IMG/VR virus record: IMGVR_UViG_3300017917_000720
Location: 1 to 28,283 of that record
Length of the DNA: 28,283 nt
DNA from: a virus
Strand: one strand, 5' to 3'
Shown: positions 351-21,300 of the stretch, in pieces
How positions within the stretch are numbered: position 1 is the stretch's first letter
Layout of the letters: every line of letters begins with the position of its first letter
The notes under the pieces: generated by a model
The model's database searches: none
The model's input: only the letters and a program-made list of their open reading frames with translations
What the model was told of the DNA's origin: nothing
Made by a program: the position numbers and the translations under genes

Positions 351-3300
351 TTAGGTTATATCCGTTTTCAAGAATATTGCAGGGTACGTGTCTGCGATCT
401 GTAATGGATCACCCTCTGTTGGGTTATATGTACCAGGAATTGGGTTCCAAGTAATTCCATAATCTGCTACGCTCATTCTATTAGCAGCTAATAGTCCATA
501 TACTGTGCTGTATTTTGCATGTACTGGTTGTACCCCTGTGCCATTAGCCCCTCTGCTACCAATAGTCAATGTATTTTCTTCAAGGTCAGCACCTACAATG
601 CGTATTTGTTCGCCATTGATTAATATTGTGTTACCTTCGATTGTAGTAATTTGCAACACATCTCCCTCTTCAATGTTGATTGGCTTAGACTTAATCTTAA
701 GTGTTGGAGCAGTATTTTCAATTATTACTTGATATTGTCCTGGACTTAATAATAATGACTTAGTTTGGTTGTAAACTGTTACGTTTAAGATATCATTTTT
801 ATGTGCGTTTAATCCAACATAAATGTAACCATCAATTGCTGCCGGTACTGTATTTGTTTGTTCAATTACATTTGTTAAGTGTGTAATATCTTTTACATAA
901 ATCTTAGTTTCATATCTATCTAGTTCTTCTGTTAACCAAGTTCTTGCTTGACTGTTTACACGATAGACATAGCCTTCGCCTCTGCTGCTGACAAAATTGA
1001 TATATCTTTCTTCAGCAGGAGTTTCTGCTGGCGTCATACTTGTAATAATAACTGCATCCCCAGCCTCAATTGTAGCAAGTATACCAACTTCATTGTAGGC
1101 ATACAATCTTAATTTTGAACTTGGTACTCTGTAACCATTTACAGTTACCCATAAACGATCAACATTATCTTGTTGCCATTGTGTTACACCTATTAATCCT
1201 GAAGCGTCGGTCAATTCAAATACTTCACCACCGCGTTCTAATGAAACAGTAATTTCATTTAGGCTGTGTGCTATGCCAGTTCCGTCACCTGTGTTTGTAC
1301 CATTCGCAACAAATGTGTTGTACAAGTTTACACCATATATCGTTGTTGATGCAACAGTTTGTAGTTTGCTTAATGCATAAGTTCCTTCTTGACCTGATCC
1401 AGTAATTACGTAATCAATTACTGTACCAGCAGAAATTCCTGCACCTGATATTTGTTGTCCTACTTGTAGGAATCCTGATGTTACTGCTGTTACAGTTAAA
1501 ATTGCAGCAGACTTAACTTCGCCTGTTTCGCGCTCAATATAAGTGCCTGGTGTGATACTACCTGTAAATTCTGAATCTGCTGTGGCACCTACTGCTAACC
1601 AATCTGTTGAGCCTAGATAATGAATAGAATATTCATAACCATCTTTTAGTTTTGTTGCACTAGTTTCAGGGGCAACATCACGCAAGAAATATTGTGTGCC
1701 ATAAGTCAATCCACCCATTAAATTGTCGCCAATTTGCGCAGCATATTGACTAAAGTAAACTGGAGTATTAGCAATCAAGTTGTATGTGCTTGCCACTGTG
1801 ATTCTATCTGTAACTGAATCTGTTAATGAGGCATTCGTATCAATGATAATAAATTGTCCCTGTTTCCAAGCATATCCACCACTGATATAAGATGATACGC
1901 CAATAACAGGATTATTATCTGGTGCATTGTATGCAGGATCGTATGGGGTTTCATAAATTCCAAATGTATAATCGTCTATAACATGTACATAGAATACTTT
2001 GCCATTTAATTGAGTAGAACCTAGAATACCATCTAATCTTACTTCTTCATTTGTTACCAACAAGTTTGGTACGCCAGTAGTAATTGTTGTAGTTTCGTTA
2101 CCTGCAACAATGCCCTTGATTGTGCCTGAGAAGTTTGAAAGAGTAACTATATCACCATTGACATTTTCAACTACAATTGTATTGTTTAGAGTATCAATTG
2201 CATTGACAAAATATACTTCTCCTATTGTATCTAAATTACCATAGTTGGCTTGTAATGCAACACCATCGCCTGAGCCTGTTGCACTCGCAGTAAATAATCC
2301 ACCTACTTCAGGAGTGCCAACATAACCAATAGCGTTCCAATTTGTATCTCCGAGTTCTTCAATTCTATACAAAGTACCAACAATTAATTGGCCTACAGTG
2401 ATTCTATTACACTTGAATTCTATAGGATTTCCTACAAGTATACCTGAAACACTTTCACATTGAATTTCATTATTACTTGAATAAGTTTCTGTTACAGTCA
2501 CTACTGTAGGTAATACTATTCCAGTATTAATATATGTGATGTTTGCAACATTAACGCTAAAAGTCAACGCTGGCATTGCGCCAGTGTCATAAGTAAATGT
2601 TATTGGATTGCCGCCTGGTGTTTCACTTATAACAAAATCAGTGCTGTTAAGTATTTCTGTAACAAAGTATTTTCTATTAGAACTTACTCCATTTAACAAT
2701 GGAGCCTCAAACACTAAAGGTTGTCCAACAGTTAATTCAGTTGTAGAATATGGTGATTGCAATGTCATCCAATTTAACAATGTGTCGTAACCTACAGTAT
2801 CATATGGCAACTCATCAAATGTTTCTTCTAAATGATTTGTGCTTTCAACAATAATTGTTGTGCTTGGTATGCCTGATGCTGCCCATTCTGTTGTGAAATA
2901 CTGTGTATCAGTATTATTATATGTTGTGACTGCTACTGTATTTCCTGTAGGTGCTACATTAAAGCCAAGCGCATTTGTCTCAGGATATATAGTATAACTT
3001 CCAATATCTACACGTAAACCATCTACTTCTACAACAGCATTTTCCGGATTTAATTGACCAGCAAAGTTGTCAAGATAATAAGTTGATCCTGACAATTCAA
3101 ATACTTGTGTCTCTGGTAATGTGTAACCCAATGGTGATGGTTGTAATTCACCAAAGAATGAATATGCTACATAATCAACATCAGTTAAATGTTGCGCTAA
3201 TAGCATTTGTGCATTTATACCATCCTGTGCAATTGTTACTGCATAGTCATTAGTAATAAATTGTGCTGTACCATAACCATTACTTAATACTAATGGATTG

Positions 3301-6300
3301 CCTGGATTTGCCGGATCTTCAAGTGTAAATTCATTTGGATCGACAAAGTATAGTACTGTATATTCATAATGTGGTATAATCTCTGGACAGAAAGTTGCAA
3401 TTGCATTATCAAATGTTATACTATCGCCTACAACTATACCTGTTAGTGTATTTGACACTACTGTATTTGTAGTTGCCTTTGTTCTGTAAGTGTAGAATGT
3501 TACACCATGCGTTAAACGATTACCATTCTTCATTACGATAGGATCAGTCCAAAACAGGCCATTACCAATTGTTATAACAACTCCCATTTGTCCTGACGCA
3601 TCAGTTAAAGTAAACGTTGGTCCTGGAGTACCATTAGTTATTGAAGTTGTGATTGATATGCTATTTGTACCTGTGCTAATTGTTTTGACATAATATATTG
3701 CTTCAGCAGTAATGCCACCAAATACATCTCCGCTAAATGATATTGGCATGCCTACTACAAAGTTTGTAACATCGTCTACTCCAATTAATTGAGTGACAGA
3801 ATTTGTACTTCTTGCGATAGTTTCGATTGGTGTAAAGTATGGGCGTACAATACCATTACCTTGTTCTATACCTGCTGAGTAGTTAACTGGCAAGAAGATT
3901 TCGTCAAATCCACCTGTATCGACATTGCTTACATATGGTGCAAGTTCAGTACTTGATTGTACTAATTGTAGACCATTGCCTACGTTGTAAATGTCTACAC
4001 GTAGTTTGTCGCTTGGACCATAACTTAATGGAGTGTCCAGAATAATTAATTGATTTACCCAATCTACTGTATAGTCAAGGTCTTTATAAATTGTTCTGCT
4101 TACGCCAGTGTTTGCATCAATAATTGATACTGATACTTGAGCAGGAACTTCAACTAGGCGCTGTCTAGTTGTTTCGTTATAATTAAATCTATAAATTACC
4201 TGTATTTCGGATATTGGTGACAATTCTTGTGAAACTACACCATATCCGTTGTGTGAATATTGTTCTATTGGCCAGTTACTGCCTGGGCGTGTATTGACAG
4301 TTAATTGTATGCTATCTGTTACAGTACCTGGAACTAGTTCTTCTGGACCATAGCCTTGTAGGAATGGTCCGCCATCAACTGTATAATCAGGAGCAGCCGT
4401 TAGGAATACTTGATGGTTTGTCCAAGTAACTCCATCGTCGCTCTTGATAATTGTATTATTATCGCCTACAGCAATGTACTGTCCAATATTGGATGCGTAG
4501 TTTACAGCGTTTAGATTTTCTTCAGTACCACTTACACTTTCTGTCCAAGTTATGCCATCACTGCTTGTTAATATAGTACCTTCATCGCCCACTGTTACAA
4601 GCAATGAAGCACCGTATGTTATATCATTTAATGTTGCAGGTCTTGGATACTTGTACATGAAGCATGGAAGTGTTGGCAAGCCTGAATAATTTAATACAAT
4701 TAGGTTATCTAATTCGTCGCTTAATGTAAGGTTACTACCAGATAATGTACGTATTTTATAAGTTGTGCTTGAACTTAATACATCAAAACTTTCAGTAAAT
4801 CTTACAAGGTCGCCTACAGTAAATCCAATCAAACTCTTGACTGAAAGTTGATTGCCACTTGATGTACCTGTGACTTCTGTTTCGTTTAAACCAATCCAAG
4901 TTTGAGCATCTGAACTTCTGTAAATAACACCATCGGTACCTACAGCATACAAGTATGTGCCGTCATTTGATAGTGATTTGAAGCCTTGGTTAGTCGTACT
5001 ACCTAAATTATCCCAACTTACTTGAGTCCATTCAGATCCGTCTGTGCTATATAAAATGACTGCTGTAGAAATATAATCACCATTTACTAAACGAACACCC
5101 TGACCTACAGTAACAAATCCAGTAAATCCAGGAATGTCAGTTGATATAACATCATATAGTGTGACTTGATTTACATCGTCAAAATAATATACTGTTGACC
5201 AATTGTAAGTATCATTACTTGCAACAATCTTATCGCCTACTGCTACATAAACATCATTTAAATATGCTACACTTTGTAATCTGCAAGGAGGTATACTTAC
5301 AACAATGCCTACTCCTTTAGGAGTAATATCCCAGGCATTATATGTTCCTGTTCCTGTTGTAGTTGAAATATTAACAGTCATTAAACCTGTGTTAATATCA
5401 TAATCAACAACAGTACCTGACATGCTATGTGATAAGTCATGACTAATAACAATTTCTTGATTAATATCCCAGGCTAAACCTGTTCCAACTGTCAATAACT
5501 TATTACCAATACCTATACCCAATGTTGAAATACTTGATGTAGAATAACTGTCTAATCCATTTGTTGCCCAAGTAATGGCATCGTCACTTCTCATTAATGG
5601 CGTTGCCACATTATCACTTGTCATCAAATAAACATCATTGATTAATGTTAAATCTGTTAGATTGATTGGTTGTTGAGTAATCTTTCCTACGTTCCAGCGA
5701 TTTTGAGTTAAATTTGAAACTAGTGCTGAATACTTAGGCAAGTTTGCTGGCAATGTATATTTGGTATTGTTATACAATACCGCAGAAAAATCTATATTCT
5801 TTTGTTCAAATGGTTGATCAGTAATTATTGTATCAACTGGCAAGATGCTATTAGGTTCGAATGGTTGACCTAAGTAAGTTGTGTTAGGATATTCTAATCC
5901 TGTAAACAATTGTGGTAGATCAAGTCCAGGCATAGTGCTAGTTGGTTCATAATAGCCTACAGCACGATCAAGAGCATTTAGTTCTTGTGATCCTGATGGT
6001 ATTTCTTCCCACTTGCCAAATATAAACTCTTTGTCATTATTAGAAATAACGCATCTGTATACCTTAGGAGGTACAGCAGGATTAGTTCTATATCTAACAA
6101 CACTTGCTTGGAAAGTAAATGGCTCAGGTAGCATCATGAAGCCACCCGGTTTAGCCATTGTCATATTTCCAGTATATGGGGGAACAGGACTATATGATAT
6201 ACCGCCCGGTGTATCTGTAATCTTAACAGAAGTTGAACTTGGTACATCATATATGTAATATGTTTGTGCTAATGTTACACCACCAAACACTTCACCTGTA

Positions 6301-9300
6301 AATATTACAGCATCGCCTTCAGCGAATCCACTACTATCTCCCACAGTCCATTCTTCAGTACCAGGATTTGCTGAAGTGACATTTGTTGTTGTAAAGCCAG
6401 CGAATGGGAAATCTAAACCGCTGACAGGAACTGTTTGCAATGGATCATTATACAATTCAAATGTATCAATTCCAGTTACTTTAACATAATAATTCTTCTG
6501 TTTTAGCGGAACATTACCAGTTACAATTACATTTGTAATGTTTCCTAATAATCCTACGCTATCTACCGTTATAATACAATTGTTAGTTGGTGTTGTGCCG
6601 CCTAAATTTGCACCTAAAACAACAAATTGATTTCCTACTGTAAAGCCCTCACCGCCATCTACAACCTTAACTGAATAACCACCTAATATTGATTGAATTA
6701 AGAATGATGGAGGATTTGTATCGAACTTAGTTTTCTGTGTTAATTTTGCTGGACCATTGCTTGTAGTCAATGATAATGCTGAACCACCCAAAGTATCTGT
6801 TACAGTTAGATAATCAGGACCTGCACCATACGTTAAGCCTGCATCATCGCCTATTTCTACTGCTATACCACCTGGATAGTTTGTTATTTCAAATTGGCTA
6901 TATGGCGCTGAACCACTTAATTTTACGTAATATTTTTGACCTAATATAATATTACCTAAACCTGCACCACTGAACACAATGGGCATGCTGTCGTATAAAT
7001 CATATGTTTCATTACAATGTATTATAGTTGAACTATCACTATACTGGCAAGTAATTGAAATAGTACCTTCGCTTTCTACATAATAAGTTTCTAATGTTGG
7101 GAATAGTGGGTTCAATCCACCTATGGTTGTGTTAATAGTAAATGGCATATTAACATAAACATCTGATAATGTGCTTGTTGTTTCTTGCAATACTAACTTA
7201 TTACTTCCAGTCAAACTCTTAACAACATTTCTTTCAACAAGATTTGTTAACAAAGTGGGTGTTACAGGGCCGTAAATTTCGCCTGTTTGATAGCATGTAA
7301 ATATTTGACCGTCGACTTGTCCTGGACTTACAGGCAAACCAATAGTCATTGTAGCATTGCCGGTCGCTGTTGTTAATTGTACAACATTGGATTGATCAAT
7401 AACTCTAGCCTTTGTGCCGTTTAATGTAGTTGCAGTGCCGGATCCAGTGCCGACACCTGTGGCAACAAATTGTATTCCAACAATGTTACCAATAGCACCT
7501 ATTAGGGTAAAATCAGTTGTTCCTAATGATTCAATTGTGTAAGATTCACCAATTACAAATGAACCTGCATTTACACTTGAACTTGAAGTTGCAGGAACCG
7601 TTGTTAACGCAAATTCATCGTAACCGTTATATGATGTTGTCAAAACAACTGTATCATAAGTTTTATCTACTGCTTTAACATAGTAAACAACGCCTTCTAA
7701 TATGTTACCAAAATCAGTTACGCTTGATCCTAATATTTGCATATTTTGAAATATCAGAGGTGTATTGACTGAAATACCTTGGACTGTATTTAATGTAGCA
7801 ATGTTTCCTACACTATTAGTTGCTAACAATGTAAACTGTAATGGTTCCGGAGTTTCACTTATTGTAAATGTTTGTGAATCGATAACTGTAGTTACGTAGT
7901 AATTTTCATTTTCTCTGATTCCACCAAATACATTTGCAGTGAATGTAACAGGAGCACCTATATACAATTGTGCTGTGCCTCCTGTGCCTAAAGCATTTAG
8001 CGGAATAGTAAATGCATTGTTTGTGCTGCTACTTGCTGTGACAGTTCTAATCCCTTGATAAATCGTAGTTATTTCAGCAACATTGGTAACATGACCAGTA
8101 TAGCAGTATACTGGCGAGCCAACTACTGTTAAGTTAGTACTAAATGTTATGCTTGATCCGTCAACTGTAGCAGAAATTTTAAATTCTGTATCGCTAACTA
8201 TTTCAGAAACATAATATGTTTGATTACTTACTAATCCAGTAATAGTTATTGGACCATTAAACTTAATTGGCATGTTCTTAAAGAAGCCAATTGTTGATCC
8301 TGATGTTGTTTCACTTACAGGTGCAGATAATTTTAATGTAATTGTATCGTTAGTGAAGTTATCGACAAAACGCTCAAATGATGACCAGTGTGTCGATGCA
8401 TTATTTTCTACGTTGACGATTGGGAACACAAAACCTTGGGCACTTGCAAGTACGTTATTGATGCTAGGCTGTGTGTCATCTAATAATAATGACCAACTTG
8501 CAACGCTTTGACTTGCATAGTCGCCAGCAAAGAAACTACCATAGAATGAATCTGATTTCCAATCAGTAACTTTACTATAGTAAGAATTTCTATCAAACTT
8601 GAATCTTACAATGTTTTCTCTTACAGGCTGACTGGATGTTACTGCACTTGCCTTTGCACCCAACCATAGTTGATTTTTCGTGCTTGGGCCAGAAACAGTG
8701 AATGGGACACGATTTTGGTCGGCATAAGCATCGTCATATGTTGTGTAAAGAGCAATAGTTGGGGCAGGAATATTTTCAATTAATCTAATATAATACCATT
8801 GTCCTTCTTGTAGGAAATTGATTGGTGTTCCCGAACCATTATGATAACGTATTAAATTTCCTGTTTGTACAGTGAAGCCTGTTAATTGAATAGTATGTAA
8901 TTCACTATCAACTGCTGTGCTATCAAAATTAATTTTTACTGATGGTTCTATAATAATTTCTGGTAGTGCTTGATAACCTAAACCAGGATCAAGCACGTTA
9001 ATGGCTGTAACTCTATCTAAACTCATTACTGCTTCAAGCACAGCAGGTCTTTTTGGAGGGTCGTATTTTTCTAAATCAATATAAGCAGTAACTTTTGGAG
9101 GATTAAAATACTGACTACCTGTTTCTAAAAGTAGTACTTGTGGAAGATCCATATAAATTTTAGCATTTGGCAAGTGTGATATTGCTGTCGTACCGTCTAG
9201 TCCTCTGACCAAATTCAACAACAAGTTTAATGCACGGTCTATGCCACTATATGTAATAATTTCTTCGCCAATCTTAATAGTACCATTTACTGGGAAACCA

Positions 9301-12300
9301 CTTGAATTCTTAACTACAGCAAATTTCACAAATCCTGCAGGCAAGTAATCTGCTAATTCAGTCATTAAGTAATCATTTTGACCAGTTAAACTTAATCCAT
9401 AGTTATCGAACCAATTTACATATTGGCCTTCTTGCCAAATGTCAGAAGATGGCAAGTATTGATTTTGTTGATTTTTCTGGATACCACCATATACCAACTC
9501 AGGGGATTCAAATGAATCTGTATTTTTATTATAAGTTGCTGGTAAATCAAAGTCTGTTAAGTCACCTTCATACACATCTGTGCCAGTGTAATTTAAAATG
9601 AATTCTTTAATTACTACGTGATATGGTTTAACTTCGTTTAGATACCCAGATAAAAACTCATTGCTGTCAGTTCTAAATTTTTCTGTTGGTAACAACTCAC
9701 GTACTTTATGTTTTACATCAAGCAAACTTGTCTTTGTTAACCATGGCAGATAATTTTGACTTTCATTTGTTTCACTTGTAATATACTCAAACATCAAAAT
9801 TAAGGACTTATTGCGGTGTATTAACAATTCTTCTATAAAGATTTGCTCGTTTAATGCACGAATAATCCAATAAGTTTCTTGGCTTGGGAAATAATCAAAT
9901 GAATCTGTGGCAAAGAAATTGCCATCAAAACCAAATTTTCCTGTGCCGTAATTATATAAACCGCTATTAATTTCGTATGTACCTTTGAAGATACCTATAC
10001 GAACCCAATCACTAAAAGTTTTACCTGCACTATCTGTTAATTGTTGATATTGATAAGTTTCTATATAACCACTGCCACCGTTCTTTACTCTAACGATAGT
10101 ACCTTCATTTACCGAAAGTTTTGCAAGATCGCTATAAATTTCTACTTGATATGCTGGTTTAGTATTATTATCAAAACCAGTTGCCCACCAATCAACTTGG
10201 GTGATAAAGTTTGCAACATCATAGTTTGTACCACTCTTTGTTAAGAATGTTGCGCTTGGACGCATCTCAACAATAGGATATTGTTTCATCACAGCATTAG
10301 CATATTGTATATAATTTTCTAGTGCCTTGAATCTGTTGTAGAAGAAACTCTGTCTTGGGCGAGCTAATACACCACTTTGTACTGCTAACGGTAGAAACGG
10401 ATTAGGTACAACATTGCCGTTTCCTTCTTCGTCTACGCCTGCAAAACTATCTAACAATCTATCATACAAACCTGCTGGTTCTTTTAATGTTGTAGTATTA
10501 GGAATACCAGGCAAGAAATCATCAGCAAAATCTGCACGAATTAGTGTGAATTCTTGATGCGGTAATGATTCACCTGTAGTTGTACTATATCCAATTTGTA
10601 ATATACTGTCGTTTGCGTTTATGTAGTAACCGCAGTTAACTAAACCAAAAGTATTTGGAAGTAATGGTTGCATGTAAGCAATACCACTTGCTTGTGGGTT
10701 AGCGATATAATATTCCATTACTGTATCAGATAATGTCTTGCCTATCTGTGAGTTTACTGTATTAGTATTGCGTACCCAAAAGTAATACAATGGTTGTACA
10801 ATGTTAGTTTGATTTACATAACTCTGAACATTGTATAAGTTTACATCTTTTACTGTACCGGGACCAGTGTATGCAGATGGCGGGCTAGTGCTTTCTACCC
10901 AAGTATAGATTGCAGGATCGCTTCCAGGGAATAAAGTAGCCCAGTAATTTGAATTATATACTGGATCGTTTTGATGATAGTTTATATAACGTATGTTTGA
11001 AGTATCAAACCACATTGTGCCAATTTTTGTTTTGCCCCATGTTACAGCACTATCTATTGTAAAGCCATTGTTATAACTTGCAGGATCAATGTTAGATACA
11101 ACGTCAATATTTTGTCTTACACTACCAAATATTTTACCTTGTAGCGGGTCGATGTAATCAAGATTAATAAGTGTATTGTTTGTTTGTGCGCTAAAGATTT
11201 GCATATTGTTGATTCTATTAATATCAACAATTGCGCTACTCTGTCTATAAACACTCCAATCTTGTACGCCAACTAAGTTATCATAGGCGATGACCTGTCC
11301 ATCGACTGTATCAGGTCTATAGTGTGGTGCTCCTATTACAACCTTATTGTCACTGAAATCTAATGCTTCGCCGTATCGTGGTTGATTACCGTAAGTAATA
11401 TCTCTAGCATTTACACTTTGAGCATATACATATGCGCCACAATTTGATAATGATTCATTATAATTGCTCAAATAATCAAACATATAAACTGCGCCAGCGT
11501 TAGGGAATGTATCTACCCAACGTGTTGCATTGTTGTCAAAGATTGTATCATTATCTTGATTTTCATCGTCAATAAAATCAAAAGTTGTTGCGCTGAAACG
11601 TGTTGCTGATGGTGCGCTAGCAACAAAACTATTATCTTCATTAAATTTGACAACTGTGCCAAATTGAGTTTGTGTACCAACATGTGGGCAAGTAATTAAT
11701 TGTGTCTGTGTATAAATTTCAAATCCTAATTGTGATAATGTCTCCTTATCTGTGACACTAATAACCAACTGTTGATTCAAGTTGGCAATGTCAGGATTGT
11801 TTATACCTATAATTAAATTACCGTCTGTAACAGTGCCAGTTCCTAAACCTGTTTGCAGGGCAGTTAATGTTGAACCAACGCTATATGATATGCTTGTTGT
11901 TCCAGCAATATAATTCCATTCTTCTTGTGTTGTAGTTCCTAAAGTTAAAATTCTATATGATTTATTATATTCTAATGTAGAAACACTGTAAGTTACAGGG
12001 CTTGCAACAACATTTGTAATTTTTGCAGCATTAATTGTTTCTGCTACTGTTTCAGCTAAACCTGCAATTTTTACTAGATAACCATTTATTAATAAATTTC
12101 TGTAGTAACTTGCTGTTCCTGTACCTGATCCTGATGTTGCGGCAACAAACACTGATCCTACTTGATATGAACCACCTGTTGTTCCTGCAACTGCATCCCA
12201 ATCTGTATCTCCTAAACTTACAATTGTATAAGTTTCTCCAAGTACAAAACTTCCTGCATTTACTACAGGTTGTGTTACATTAGTAGGAGTTACGCTGGTA

Positions 12301-15300
12301 ATCTGTCCATATTTTTCAGCAGCATTTGTGAAACGATGCACTGCGCCTTCATAATTGAAACTGTCAAGTTCGTATGGCGCGCCAACAATTATTTCATTAG
12401 CATATGTGTTAGTATCTACACTTGTACCAAAATTTACACCAGTACGAGGTGTATTTTCTGTGTTAAGAATTTGTTTTTCAACAAACTGGCATGTACCAAC
12501 GCTAATTATGTCTCCTACATTTAATGGTGTAGAGTAAACAAAGGCAGTACCTATGACTGAGTAATTATTATCTTGTACTAAAACACCATTTACAGTTACA
12601 TCTAAAGGACTCATTTGCAACGTTGCATAAGTGTTTGTTATACCTGCTTTTGCCACAAGTGTTTCTTCTGTATTGGTATTGCGTGTTGTCTTAATTGTAA
12701 TAGTGTTAGTGAGTGTATCTACACTTGCAACATAATATGTTTGATAAGGATTAATTCCAGTGCCAGTTAAACCTGCTGTTGTTTTACTTGAAAATACTAC
12801 TGGTTTGTCCTCAGCAAAATAAGATACGTCTGATAATTGAATTGCGTTATTGGCATAAACATCAGTGACATTTACCCCATATGTGTATGGTGCGGATGCC
12901 ATTTGGAAATATTGAATATTATCGACCGTAGTGAAAGGGGCCTCATAATTTTGAACTATTCTGTCAAACACATACGCTTGACCCCAATTTTCTACTGAAC
13001 CGCTATAATCATAGTTTGGAGCACCTACTACAACTGTTTCACTGTAATAATCTGTTGCAATAGATGCACCAAAGTTATCACCTAATGAAAGCCCCGTGCC
13101 AGTAATTGCGTTTACATATTCATAAGATATTTGTTTTGCTGTACCACTACCACTGCCTGCACCTGTTGCAATAAACTTAATACCAATCTTATTTTCTACT
13201 GCACCAATAGCAGTAAAGTCTGTTGGGTCAGCATAGACTGTGCCTGTGCCTGTAATTGTATCTGTTGCAGTAAAGATAGTGCCTGGTTTGTTACTAGTTG
13301 CCCCAATCAATGTAAAGTTTGTAGTACCTTGATAGGCAATTTCATAAGTATTTCCAGCGACAATTTCTGTCGCATTTATTAAAGTTCCTAATGAAGTAAT
13401 TTCGTAAACTTGATTAGTATTAAAGTACCCTGCATCATAGGCAATATTTTGTTTCTTAAAGATATAAACATAATTGATTTCTGATGCAGAAATATACAGC
13501 CAGTTATCATCATCGCTTAATGCTATTGATGTCCCCCAGTTTGTAACTCCTATCGGTGCTGATATTTCCCAAATTGGTAGCAATGCATTTGTAACATTGG
13601 TATCATTCCAAGTGTAAATTACAACCTTAGAATTTGTTGTAGGTTGTGAAATTACAAATGTATTGTTGTTGTGTGCGATTGATGTACCAAAACTAGTATC
13701 GCCGGTTAGTGTTTCGAATAATTCTAATTTATTATCAACAGTGTCATAACGATACACTTCACCTAATGTGGCGTCACCAACTAGATAACCTATGTTTTTG
13801 TTATAGGCTACGCTTGTACCATAATTTTCTGAATATGCTTTTGAACTAAACTTATCATTAAATGCAGAATCATATTGATAATTTAATGACTTACGGTATA
13901 CTGCCCAACCACCATCATCATTTTCATCTACCCATACAGTATTCTTAGTGAATTCACTTGACAATAATGGTAGTGTTGGTATGTCTGATGGTTTGTCTAC
14001 TCGCTGACTTACAAACTTTAAGCAAGTGCCTTGACCTGTAATATTAACAGCATTTGTTGTTATAAATGTTACTGTAATTTGTTTTGGATTTACTATATCA
14101 GCAACAGTATAATAACCATTTACGCTTGCGTTAAAATTGATAATGGCTATCAAATCATATTGTGATAAATTGTGTACTCCATTAAATGTTATAGTTGCAG
14201 TACCATTTAAATTACTACGCAAATTTATAACATTAACAGGTGGAGTAGAATAGTTGTAATCTTCATTTAATATGTCAGGAGTATACACATTCCACTTGGC
14301 GAGATAGTTCGCAATCCAAACATAATCACGAACATAAAATTGTTCAATAGGTACGATATTACCAGCTTTATTCACAGCATTTGGTAGTTGTGAATAATAA
14401 TAGGCTGACATTTTTACGTCATTATAATTTACGTAACCTGCGTCTGGATAAACTGTGCTTGGTTCATAACTTGTAGTATACAGAACATTAGGATCAGTAA
14501 TAGGTGTTGAATAATTAAACAATTTATTCAAAGGAATATATTGCTGTATTCCCGGAGTATGAACTCCGTTCGTTAATGAAACTGTGGCGGGGTTGCCAGT
14601 TAGTTTGCTTTCTTGTAAACGCATCTCAATGAAGTTGTCGTTGAGTACCCCACCAAACTTACCGGATAGTATACCCCAATTTTCATAAGTTTCATATTCA
14701 ATGCCGCCTTGTGGTAAATTTGCGCCTTTGAATGCGTTGACTGCGTTTTTAGTACCTTTATTCTTTATTAAGTTTCTATAGACATTAACTTGTGTTACAT
14801 CAGACAAATCTGCTGCCTGCATGTAATCACGGGGTCTATACCCAATCAGACCAAAACTCAATAGATCAGCGTCAGATTCAAGATTGGTTTGATTGATATT
14901 ATAGTACAACGTACTTTCATAACTGCGTGTGCTGCTGTTTGGCAGCAAGCCTTTTGAAATTTCATTATAATCAGTAATAATCCAATCTTTTTCTTGGAAC
15001 GCTAATGCAGGTTGAATAATCTTTAATGCAGTCCAATACTTGTTCTTAAACTTGACAATTTGCCCCTTAGTATAACGTACATTTTTTGACCATTCTTGAA
15101 TGTTGTCTTGGTTATAAATGAACCCTGACGCAAACATCGTGCCGTTCCATTCAGCAGTTTTACTGCCTACAACATAAACACGATTTTGACGTAAGCCAGT
15201 AATTAAGTTATACAATATATCATTAAATTCTGTAACGTTATCAAACACTATGCCATGTTCAATATTTGAAATGTTAAATTGACCATAACTAATTGTATCA

Positions 15301-18300: not shown

Positions 18301-21300
18301 CTTTCTTGCAAAGCAGCGATTGGATAATTATGCGTATAGTCGAACTCAAAGAGTTGATATTGAACGCTAGGCGCAACTGCTGTTTGCCAGCCTAGCAATT
18401 TGTTGTTATCTTCTCTTGTATAGTAATTGTAAACATAACCAGTACTTACATTAAGTGTAATTGGTTGTTTTGTAGTATTATCTACGTAATTAAAAGTGGC
18501 ACTATTAAATGACACATCGAAACTTATATCGCCGGTATTTGAAAGAGAACTGTATGCTAGTGGGAATCCCAAAACAGAATCATCTGTTCCCGAACCTAAT
18601 TCATACGCAAATAATTTATTTCCAGCAAAGTCACTGCCTTGATATATTATTTTATTACTAAAACTTATTCCATTTTTGTCGAATATATCAAACAATGGAG
18701 GTTGATTTACATCTGTTTTTTGTTGTCCCTTTACCCATAAGGAACCATCAAACCAAAAAGTTTTTCCAGTATTAAAATTGCCGCGCAGTATAACTGTTTG
18801 ATCGTTTTCGTAAATATTACCATCACTAGTTTCAGTTAGTGTTATAACTGGATTTCCACCTACTGTATAACTTTCTATTGTTACAGTATAAATTTTGTCT
18901 CTTACACTTGCTTCTTGGTCTACAGCGAAAATAACCTTTGCGCCGTTAAAGAGTGCATAATTGTCATTATTGATGTCATTTGCAATAAATGATCGGTTAG
19001 TGCCGTAAGTTGCAGGTATAGCATCTTCCCAATATACAGTTATTGTTAAAGTATTAATACCTTCAATACTTAAGATTCTTGCGTCACTAGGAAGAATTGG
19101 TTCCAATCCTGACACTGTATAATCTGGAATATCGCTGATGTATTGACCAATTTGGAATGAGCCAGAAATAGGAACATTATCTGAACTAGAACTAAACACA
19201 TCTGCTGTAGGTATTGTTATGGTAGTATATGTTAAAGGATTGCCTGTGCCTGTACCTGAGTCAGTGGCTACGACTTTAACTTGGTCACCTACACTATAAG
19301 TTTCCCCAACTGTACCTGCTACATAATTCCAGTCGGTGGATCCCAATGATGCAATCTCATAAGTTTGACCGATTAGAAAACTATTACTTGAGATACCTGT
19401 AACTAAATTAATTGTGCCTGTATATCTTGTATAAACTTCAACATCTGGATAATATACAGGTTGACCATTAACCATACTGAAAGCATCAGTAGTTCTGTAA
19501 TCTATAAAGTCAACTGAACTTTTTCCATATGTTCCTTGATTAAACAATTTTAAGTTTGGATAAAATTCAATAATTGGTCTGTAGGCTTTATTTTCTTCAG
19601 AGGCATACTCTGTTAAAATATTTGAATTGTAATTATATTCTGCTGTTGCCTTAATTACATCTATATGGAACCAACGATTACTACGTGACCAAGGATTTTT
19701 ACTTAAACTGTTTCTTGCAATAGTAATATAATCTTTAGTTTCAGGTAAATTATCCGCTGCATCAAAATTTGTAGTATCAAAAGGTAAACTATCGTAAGGA
19801 ATAGGTTGACTTACTGTATAATTTTCTGGTGTGTTTAAATCTCTTACATCAATTAACTCAATTGCTGTGCCAACACCCTGTACATAATATTCTGACTGTG
19901 CATACTTTTCAGGGAATATATCACCACTAAATGATACTTTTAATCCGTTAGTAAAGTTTACTATTTGACCATTAGGTATAGCAATGCTATAATTTTTCTT
20001 CCCTAAAATTGTGTATATGTCGAGTGTGTTAGTACTATTATTTTCGATAATTCGCAATGACCCAACTTTATTTGGATTGCTACTATCTTGATAATATAAT
20101 TTGTCTAATGATGCAGTAATGTAAGGTACTTTTGAAATTGTACCAGAATTAGTTTGTTTGTAGAACGGTATATTAATATACTGTGTTCCGTATTGTGGCA
20201 CGATTCTTTCATTAGTTGGAATTAAAGAATACGGTACCAAACGTAAAATAGGATTAGTAATATCATCAGTATTTTCTACATAGGTTATTTTATAAAAATA
20301 ATTGTTAACAGAACTATAAAAACCTTCTTCGTATAATCCTTCATTAATATTGGCTGTCATTGTTCCTGATGCGGTTGTTAACGCAACTTCCGGGCCACCA
20401 ATACTCAATGAAACTGTGAACTGTGTTGGACCTAAAATATCTTTTACATAGTAAATTACATCTGTTAATGCACCGTTATATTGATTAATGTTGCCAAATA
20501 CTGTACCAGTAAATGTAACAACATTATTTACCTGCAAATTACTTGTGCTTGCTACAGTTAGTGCATTAATACCAGAAGTAGTGTTGGTAACTGTTAATGT
20601 TAATGGCGGTACATTTAAATTAAAATCTACATCATTTATATTAGTGTCATAAGGACTGCCATTGTAATATACGCTAGTATAAGCAAGTTCGCCTGTCTCT
20701 CCAGTATTATAAAATAGTACAGTGAGTCCTTCTAATTCTGTAACACCATCAATATTTTGTACATCGTTTAATAATTGACCATTTATATTTTTAAAAGGTA
20801 TGGTTGACACGACATCTACAGTGTTGTTACCTGTTTTAATATCTTCGTTTTGTGCATCGGCCGCTGGAACTGTAAATGTAATTACGCCATTTGTAGCACC
20901 GTTATTATAAACGCCATTTTCTTCGCCTAATCTTACACTAAAGTTGGGCTGTGTTGGAGATACTCCATCAACACCAGGTTCACCCTGAATCCAAAATTGA
21001 CTGTCTTGATTTACGATAAAACGATATGTGCCGCCGCGCAATAATGTTAGTGTAGGATTTATACCACCGACAGATGTTTCTGCTGCTCTAATAAAATAGT
21101 CATTTGGTTCATCTGTGACGATATAATCTGTTGTAGTGTATACATTTGAAGTGCTAATCTCTACGGCTGGCAAGCCATCTTTTAACCAATAATACTGATT
21201 AAAATTAATAATTTGGTCGAGACTTACGAAAGAATCCCAACTGTAAAATTGACTTGTAAATAATTTATTATTATCAGAAACTAGTGCGCCTTCATTGGTA

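Follow-up and report, generated by a model that had tools for sequence, protein, structure and literature searches.

The window analysed here, a 28,283-nucleotide stretch of an uncultured phage (IMG/VR record IMGVR_UViG_3300017917_000720), encodes a giant virion structural protein of 7,079 aa in a single ORF that is open throughout (positions 351-21590, minus strand) and lies directly 3' of a gp6-like baseplate wedge gene. This protein, which carries all of the modules described below, matches phrog_10938 ('virion structural protein') at 6.5e-185. Its nearest cultured relatives belong to jumbo phages, among them PA5oct, Atu_ph07 and Rak2-like phages, with tblastn matches to PA5oct and Atu_ph07. 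The same gene order is found in Pseudomonas phage PA5oct (gp354-gp355), the baseplate wedge gene being immediately upstream in both PA5oct and Atu_ph07, and both homology and gene order place the protein among the Rak2/PA5oct-type giant structural proteins beside gp6. The PA5oct equivalent (gp355) comprises 3,857 aa, follows a gp6-like gene, and its product has been found in virions by ESI-MS/MS. As part of the nested-insertion explanation set out below, which we consider probable as a whole, the host of the modules is read as a virion protein located near the baseplate in a myovirus of the jumbo type. In other parts of the protein, 'SDDGVTWTN...YIAVGD' repeats (residues about 5430-5750; window about 4300-5300, minus strand) resemble a BNR/propeller region and lie near a weak DUF6242 match, while residues 2166-2189 (15024-15095, minus strand) give a weak match to the carbohydrate-binding module CBM_5_12. 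One record annotates a PA5oct-type relative as a chitin-binding type-3 protein.

Three module families in the giant protein

At window positions 1185-1820 (minus strand; residues 6591-6802), the preliminary description had identified an FGGI-YYV module split by an SLGTTDF module, which is itself split by a QVGQxISGxGI module; we refer to these as OUTER, MIDDLE and INNER. Profiles placed INNER in MIDDLE in OUTER exactly as described, such that OUTER (~80 aa) is split by MIDDLE (47 aa) and MIDDLE by INNER (~64-77 aa). The extent given for the segment was essentially right, if slightly short, since OUTER begins near residue 6585 (window position 1838). All parts of the nest are on the minus strand. 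The N-terminal part of OUTER (residues 6585-6643; 1662-1838) scores 53.3-58.9 bits over columns 1-60 of a profile made only from orthologues, and is joined to the C-terminal part (residues 6779-6800; 1191-1256) by excising residues 6644-6778. This whole insert of 135 aa (1257-1661) consists of MIDDLE, INNER and short linkers. MIDDLE, marked by LGTTDF, comprises an N-terminal part (residues about 6645-6672; 1575-1658) and a C-terminal part (residues 6755-6775; 1266-1328), the latter delimited by its profile after excision and by MAFFT.

INNER (FTGSI...LTVTAV...QVGQxISGxGI...GTY...QTVASTTI) occupies residues 6676-6752 (1335-1565), beginning with the conserved FTGSI at residues 6676-6680, and was recognised by its own profile and by phrog_21413 (1.2e-10). 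Between FTGSI and LTVTAV, the target carries residues TPGTYIERETGEV (6681-6693; 1512-1550) that the family consensus lacks; these 13-14 extra residues lie where other members show a tight hairpin, a loop in which MIDDLE modules seem to sit at another locus (L045). Upstream of the nest in the protein, a module resembling OUTER (residues about 6511-6573; 1872-2060, minus strand) matches Pfam E1_FCCH (PF16190) by sequence at 5.6e-07, just above the curated cut-off (30 versus 29.5 bits), whereas OUTER copies alone reach no Pfam model, E1_FCCH included.

Two further nests were found in the same protein, again on the minus strand. In the second, a MIDDLE module (residues 2720-2736 and 2790-2818; 13137-13433) is interrupted at GT^TDF by a second MIDDLE unit (residues 2737-2789; 13224-13382), and the outer copy scores 73.8 bits after excision. 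Five orthologues (L013, L028, L037, L038 and L070) have the exact empty site, with residue 2736 joined directly to 2790. In the third, an OUTER module (residues about 6366-6491; 2118-2495) is split by MIDDLE at residues 6398-6446 and rises from 20.7 to 35.0 bits after excision, with a gain of 13.6 bits in the survey described below. MIDDLE units also occur at residues 3109-3163 (12102-12266, minus strand), between ordinary protein segments and with an empty site in L009, L028 and L037, and at residues 733-786 (19233-19394, minus strand), with an empty site in L036, L049 and L053. The three MIDDLE units with clean empty sites (2737-2789, 3109-3163 and 733-786) are 53, 55 and 54 aa long. When compared with the top row of their alignment, MIDDLE copies in the giant protein show 36-59% identity, and the best preserved (residues 4674-4720; 7431-7571, minus strand; 72.8 bits) was used for structure prediction.

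Relatives of these modules are abundant in viral contigs, with at least 459 for MIDDLE and at least 457 for INNER. Among 50,697 records of cultured phages, MIDDLE was found in two or three and INNER in at most one, both counts being lowered by low-complexity filtering, and bacterial genomes yielded five. The edges of MIDDLE modules are sharp; the conservation seen in this comparison is overstated, as pattern seeding prefers conserved copies. Across 29 carrier proteins that were scanned for named matches, nearly all of these matches are to virion functions, and the carriers include tail sheath, tail fibre, tail spike, head closure, major head, amidase and internal virion proteins. The suggestion that each family is already known as a stand-alone phage module was partly right: INNER gives partial matches to two PHROG profiles, but no Pfam, NCBIfam or PHROG model matches MIDDLE.

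Excision tests, predicted structure and relatives

Three profiles were constructed, none of which included the window protein. The MIDDLE profile (47 columns) drew on IMG/VR loci and the OUTER profile (83 columns) on orthologues that share the site; the INNER profile has 64 columns. The target's own INNER found no relatives when used as a query, and INNER relatives were fetched with a family-like probe that served only as bait; the INNER profile contains only sequences fetched from other contigs, with the probe itself left out. This profile matched residues 6694-6752 at 4e-16 (56.7 bits). Excision of residues 6673-6754 raised the MIDDLE score from 20.9 bits (profile columns 2-29) to 38.3 bits (1-46), and excision of residues 6644-6778 raised the OUTER score from 58.9 bits (columns 1-60) to 84.7 bits (1-81 of 83), in agreement with the earlier claim that removal of each insert restores the next host. 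Profile boundaries and excision scores together place MIDDLE wholly within OUTER and INNER wholly within MIDDLE. MAFFT, given no hints, broke the MIDDLE family alignment around INNER; the alignment of orthologues with an intact OUTER likewise opened up to take in the whole insert, bar a few residues.

A chance control was provided by a survey of 203 loci. Every module copy that the profiles detected was cut out, allowing a few residues of leeway, and the flanks were joined and scored anew. The host was repaired by at least 12 bits in 12 of the 371 module excisions, compared with none of 370 random excisions of equal lengths from the same proteins. The repaired cases comprise MIDDLE in OUTER, MIDDLE in MIDDLE, INNER in INNER and OUTER in OUTER, and multi-level nests such as those of the target, L108 and L003 were left out of the 12. 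The three-level nested domain insertion in this giant virion protein is real.

AlphaFold2 predicted MIDDLE alone (62 residues, 39 sequences) with a mean pLDDT of 85 (85.3 for the best preserved copy) as a small arrangement of strands with two short helical turns. No PDB match to MIDDLE was found by fold (Foldseek) or by sequence, while the same predicted fold recurs within predicted structures of unrelated phage proteins (TMq 0.77-0.87). MIDDLE takes inserts at GT^TDF, GAxx^N and ATG^VGSG, in each case between predicted secondary-structure elements. The model of MIDDLE containing INNER is of low confidence overall (pLDDT 55), and in it the MIDDLE secondary structure is kept on both sides of the insert. 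The low score says nothing against INNER because the run gave INNER no alignment. The structural check proposed in the preliminary description, which asked whether three separate domains close, was answered in part: MIDDLE on its own is predicted to fold well, and its elements persist around INNER in a low-confidence model.

Orthologues were collected with the C-terminal 277 aa as a query, which yielded about 20 IMG/VR contigs with giant proteins, and relatives also entered through single-module searches. A query with all 579 C-terminal aa had no matches among viral contigs or cultured phages, because 8-mer seeding and divergence hide relatives from it. An uninterrupted OUTER, without the 135-aa insert, is present at the target site in 11 orthologues (L096, L097, L099, L100, L102, L104, L105, L106, L109, L110 and L111), and four lineages have no OUTER there (L101, L107, L112 and L113). 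L117 also lacks OUTER at the site by its sequence but was labelled OUTER by default in the tree, so the label counts are off by one. Orthologues without OUTER form one branch (support 89/81) of a tree with a poorly resolved base, so that the tree does not say whether OUTER was gained or lost.

Partly filled sites were also found. In L103, OUTER contains MIDDLE at another loop, whereas L108 has MIDDLE at the same loop as the target (YFVLEVAP^ versus YFLRDVAP^ in the target) and no INNER. Relatives that lack one or both inserts, which the preliminary description had asked for, were thereby found, most clearly in the form of the 11 intact OUTER modules. Of the two outcomes that it named as refuting, a predicted single fold across the segment and a lack of close relatives with the empty site, neither was observed. 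L108 is the weaker case, since its restored MIDDLE is degenerate and scores only 16.6 bits. The MIDDLE insertions of L108 and the target likely share common descent. Deeper or parallel nests occur in L108, L033, L103, L104 and L090. MIDDLE in L108 (ORF residues about 316-475; locus 733-1644, plus strand) holds two further MIDDLE modules at different loops, a branched form of nesting, and L003 (ORF residues 21-160; locus from 2268, plus strand) has an apparent three-level nest of MIDDLE in MIDDLE in MIDDLE. A reverse nest was observed in L045 and L110, where MIDDLE modules apparently separate the ATFTGQI and LTITAV parts of an INNER module (L045 ORF residues about 495-672).

Origin and order of the insertions

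MIDDLE copies in unrelated flanks average 66% amino-acid identity, while their fourfold-degenerate sites are 34% identical and saturated, also between copies within one contig. At the DNA level the copies are no more alike than their protein demands. This low identity indicates that the copies are old and have been maintained by selection acting on the protein. On account of the saturation, a recently active DNA element was rejected as the source of MIDDLE. Inspection of six insertion junctions by eye, all of them old, revealed no conserved DNA motif, target duplication or terminal repeat, and an all-against-all DNA comparison for recent insertions found no recent MIDDLE case. Between contigs whose flanking DNA is 75-93% identical, INNER-, OUTER- and FCCH-like modules have been gained or lost in frame, with ragged insert ends where these are visible.

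The most recent event seen distinguishes L201 from L194 near position 2470, where flanks are 92-93% identical and L201 has an extra in-frame module of 270 bp; the module is located within an insert by which an INNER module seems to be interrupted. In L156, compared with L190 near position 3371 (flanks 84% and 77% identical), an OUTER-like module takes the place of the FTGSI hairpin in INNER. An FCCH-like module of about 75 aa is present or absent in frame between L081 and L029 near position 1995, with about 79% flanking DNA identity.

The best explanation, which we hold to be likely, is a true three-level nested insertion, in which small, autonomously folding, beta-rich modules have entered loops in frame. 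It is extremely improbable that the segment is one long divergent fold whose likeness to three families is a coincidence of beta-rich, glycine- and threonine-rich low-complexity sequence: all three families are indeed rich in Gly, Thr and Ser, and MAFFT stacks them on each other when OUTER, MIDDLE and INNER are mixed in one alignment, but the independent profiles reach 38-85 bits after excision, a repair that no random excision reproduced, and in orthologues the modules run on without a break at these points. An ancestral nested state, from which relatives have since lost modules, would fit the single branch without OUTER as one OUTER loss. This is nevertheless unlikely, as the losses would have to be codon-exact and parallel, given the five orthologues that lack exactly 2737-2789 and the three that lack each of the 3109-3163 and 733-786 units, and as the PA5oct giant protein and the 4,208 aa examined of the Atu_ph07 protein match none of the OUTER, MIDDLE and INNER profiles. 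The order of events is less tightly constrained. The preliminary description took the nest to record successive insertions in order, but the nest alone gives no order, and together with the poorly resolved base of the tree this leaves a modest chance that INNER entered MIDDLE elsewhere and that the composite then entered OUTER in one step. L108, with MIDDLE at the same OUTER loop and no INNER, is most simply explained if MIDDLE came first, so that the simplest reading is that OUTER was probably followed by MIDDLE and then by INNER.

How the modules move is a separate question. The sharp edges of the modules, the 53-55 aa unit lengths at three empty sites of the giant gene, repeated self-insertion at GT^TDF in P0001 and L033, and hundreds of copies in unrelated genes are all features expected if MIDDLE were a dedicated protein-coding mobile element akin to Rickettsia palindromic elements, its DNA being moved by an enzyme of its own or by one acting in trans. 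Such an element is very unlikely in light of the saturated synonymous sites, which extend to copies in one contig, the lack of an evident DNA motif or target duplication at six junctions, and the ragged ends of the most recent insertion/deletion pair. The proposal that environmental tailed phages share a pool of tiny interchangeable beta-modules, for the most part missed by present family libraries, that nest recursively by a specific in-frame mobility mechanism, such that virion proteins expand like nested parentheses with an insertion order that can be read from the nest, is rather unlikely as a whole. On the favoured explanation of nested in-frame insertion, small beta-rich modules would instead be inserted into surface loops of modules already in place, having travelled between co-infecting phage genomes by rare illegitimate or short-homology recombination with no dedicated transposition system. 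Surviving insertions would be those in which a module with adjacent N and C termini landed in a loop, such that the host could still close. On the virion, the modules would likely form exposed spacers or an adhesive decoration, a role suggested by their virion context and by analogy with phage Ig-like domains.

Relation to known systems and consequences for phage proteins

Phage Ig-like domains, reportedly described by Fraser and colleagues in 2006, are said to be small beta domains that occur in many unrelated virion proteins and are probably exposed on the particle. This promiscuous occurrence in virion proteins also holds for MIDDLE, but the modules described here are about half the size and are placed inside proteins and within each other, and none matches an Ig-fold family (I-set, BIG_2 or FN3). 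Rickettsia palindromic elements are DNA-conserved mobile elements that insert in frame in protein-coding genes. The phage modules share this in-frame insertion inside genes, but their conservation is at the protein level and their synonymous sites are saturated.

Nested A-B-C-B-A insertions have been published for proteins, as has a six-level case within the same family in cyanobacterial RNA polymerase (PMC13114784). A parallel in recursion is offered by the nested HABAS and hybrid-motif insertions in the beta' subunit of that polymerase (PMC13114784, PMC11515920). Both systems feature the recursive insertion of small beta-modules, with members of a family inserted into members of the same family, to as many as six levels in the polymerase. 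In contrast, the phage modules occur in environmental virion proteins, in many unrelated genes, and vary in presence and absence among relatives. The Russian-doll arrangement noted in the preliminary description thus has precedents among proteins generally (PMC13114784). Promiscuous small domains and continuing shuffling of fragments have been documented for phage proteins, and in-gene domain exchange is concentrated in virion and receptor-binding proteins, according to Smug et al. 2023 (PMC10684548), which also cites the 2006 work of Fraser and colleagues; that study describes exchange and gain or loss of domains, and its text does not use the word 'nested'. The novelty of the present case lies in tiny modules, most of them without a name, that are used recursively in the virion proteins of environmental phages, where relatives keep intermediate states.

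Nested insertion offers a stepwise growth route for very large phage proteins, as illustrated by the 3,857-aa protein of PA5oct, which has none of these modules, and the 7,079-aa protein described here. Virion proteins are probably often mis-segmented at present: MIDDLE is abundant in environmental viruses, yet invisible to Pfam, NCBIfam and PHROGs. Nested modules also mislead aligners and structure predictors. MIDDLE itself would be a good natural scaffold for the study of domain insertion, because three of its loops demonstrably accept whole domains.
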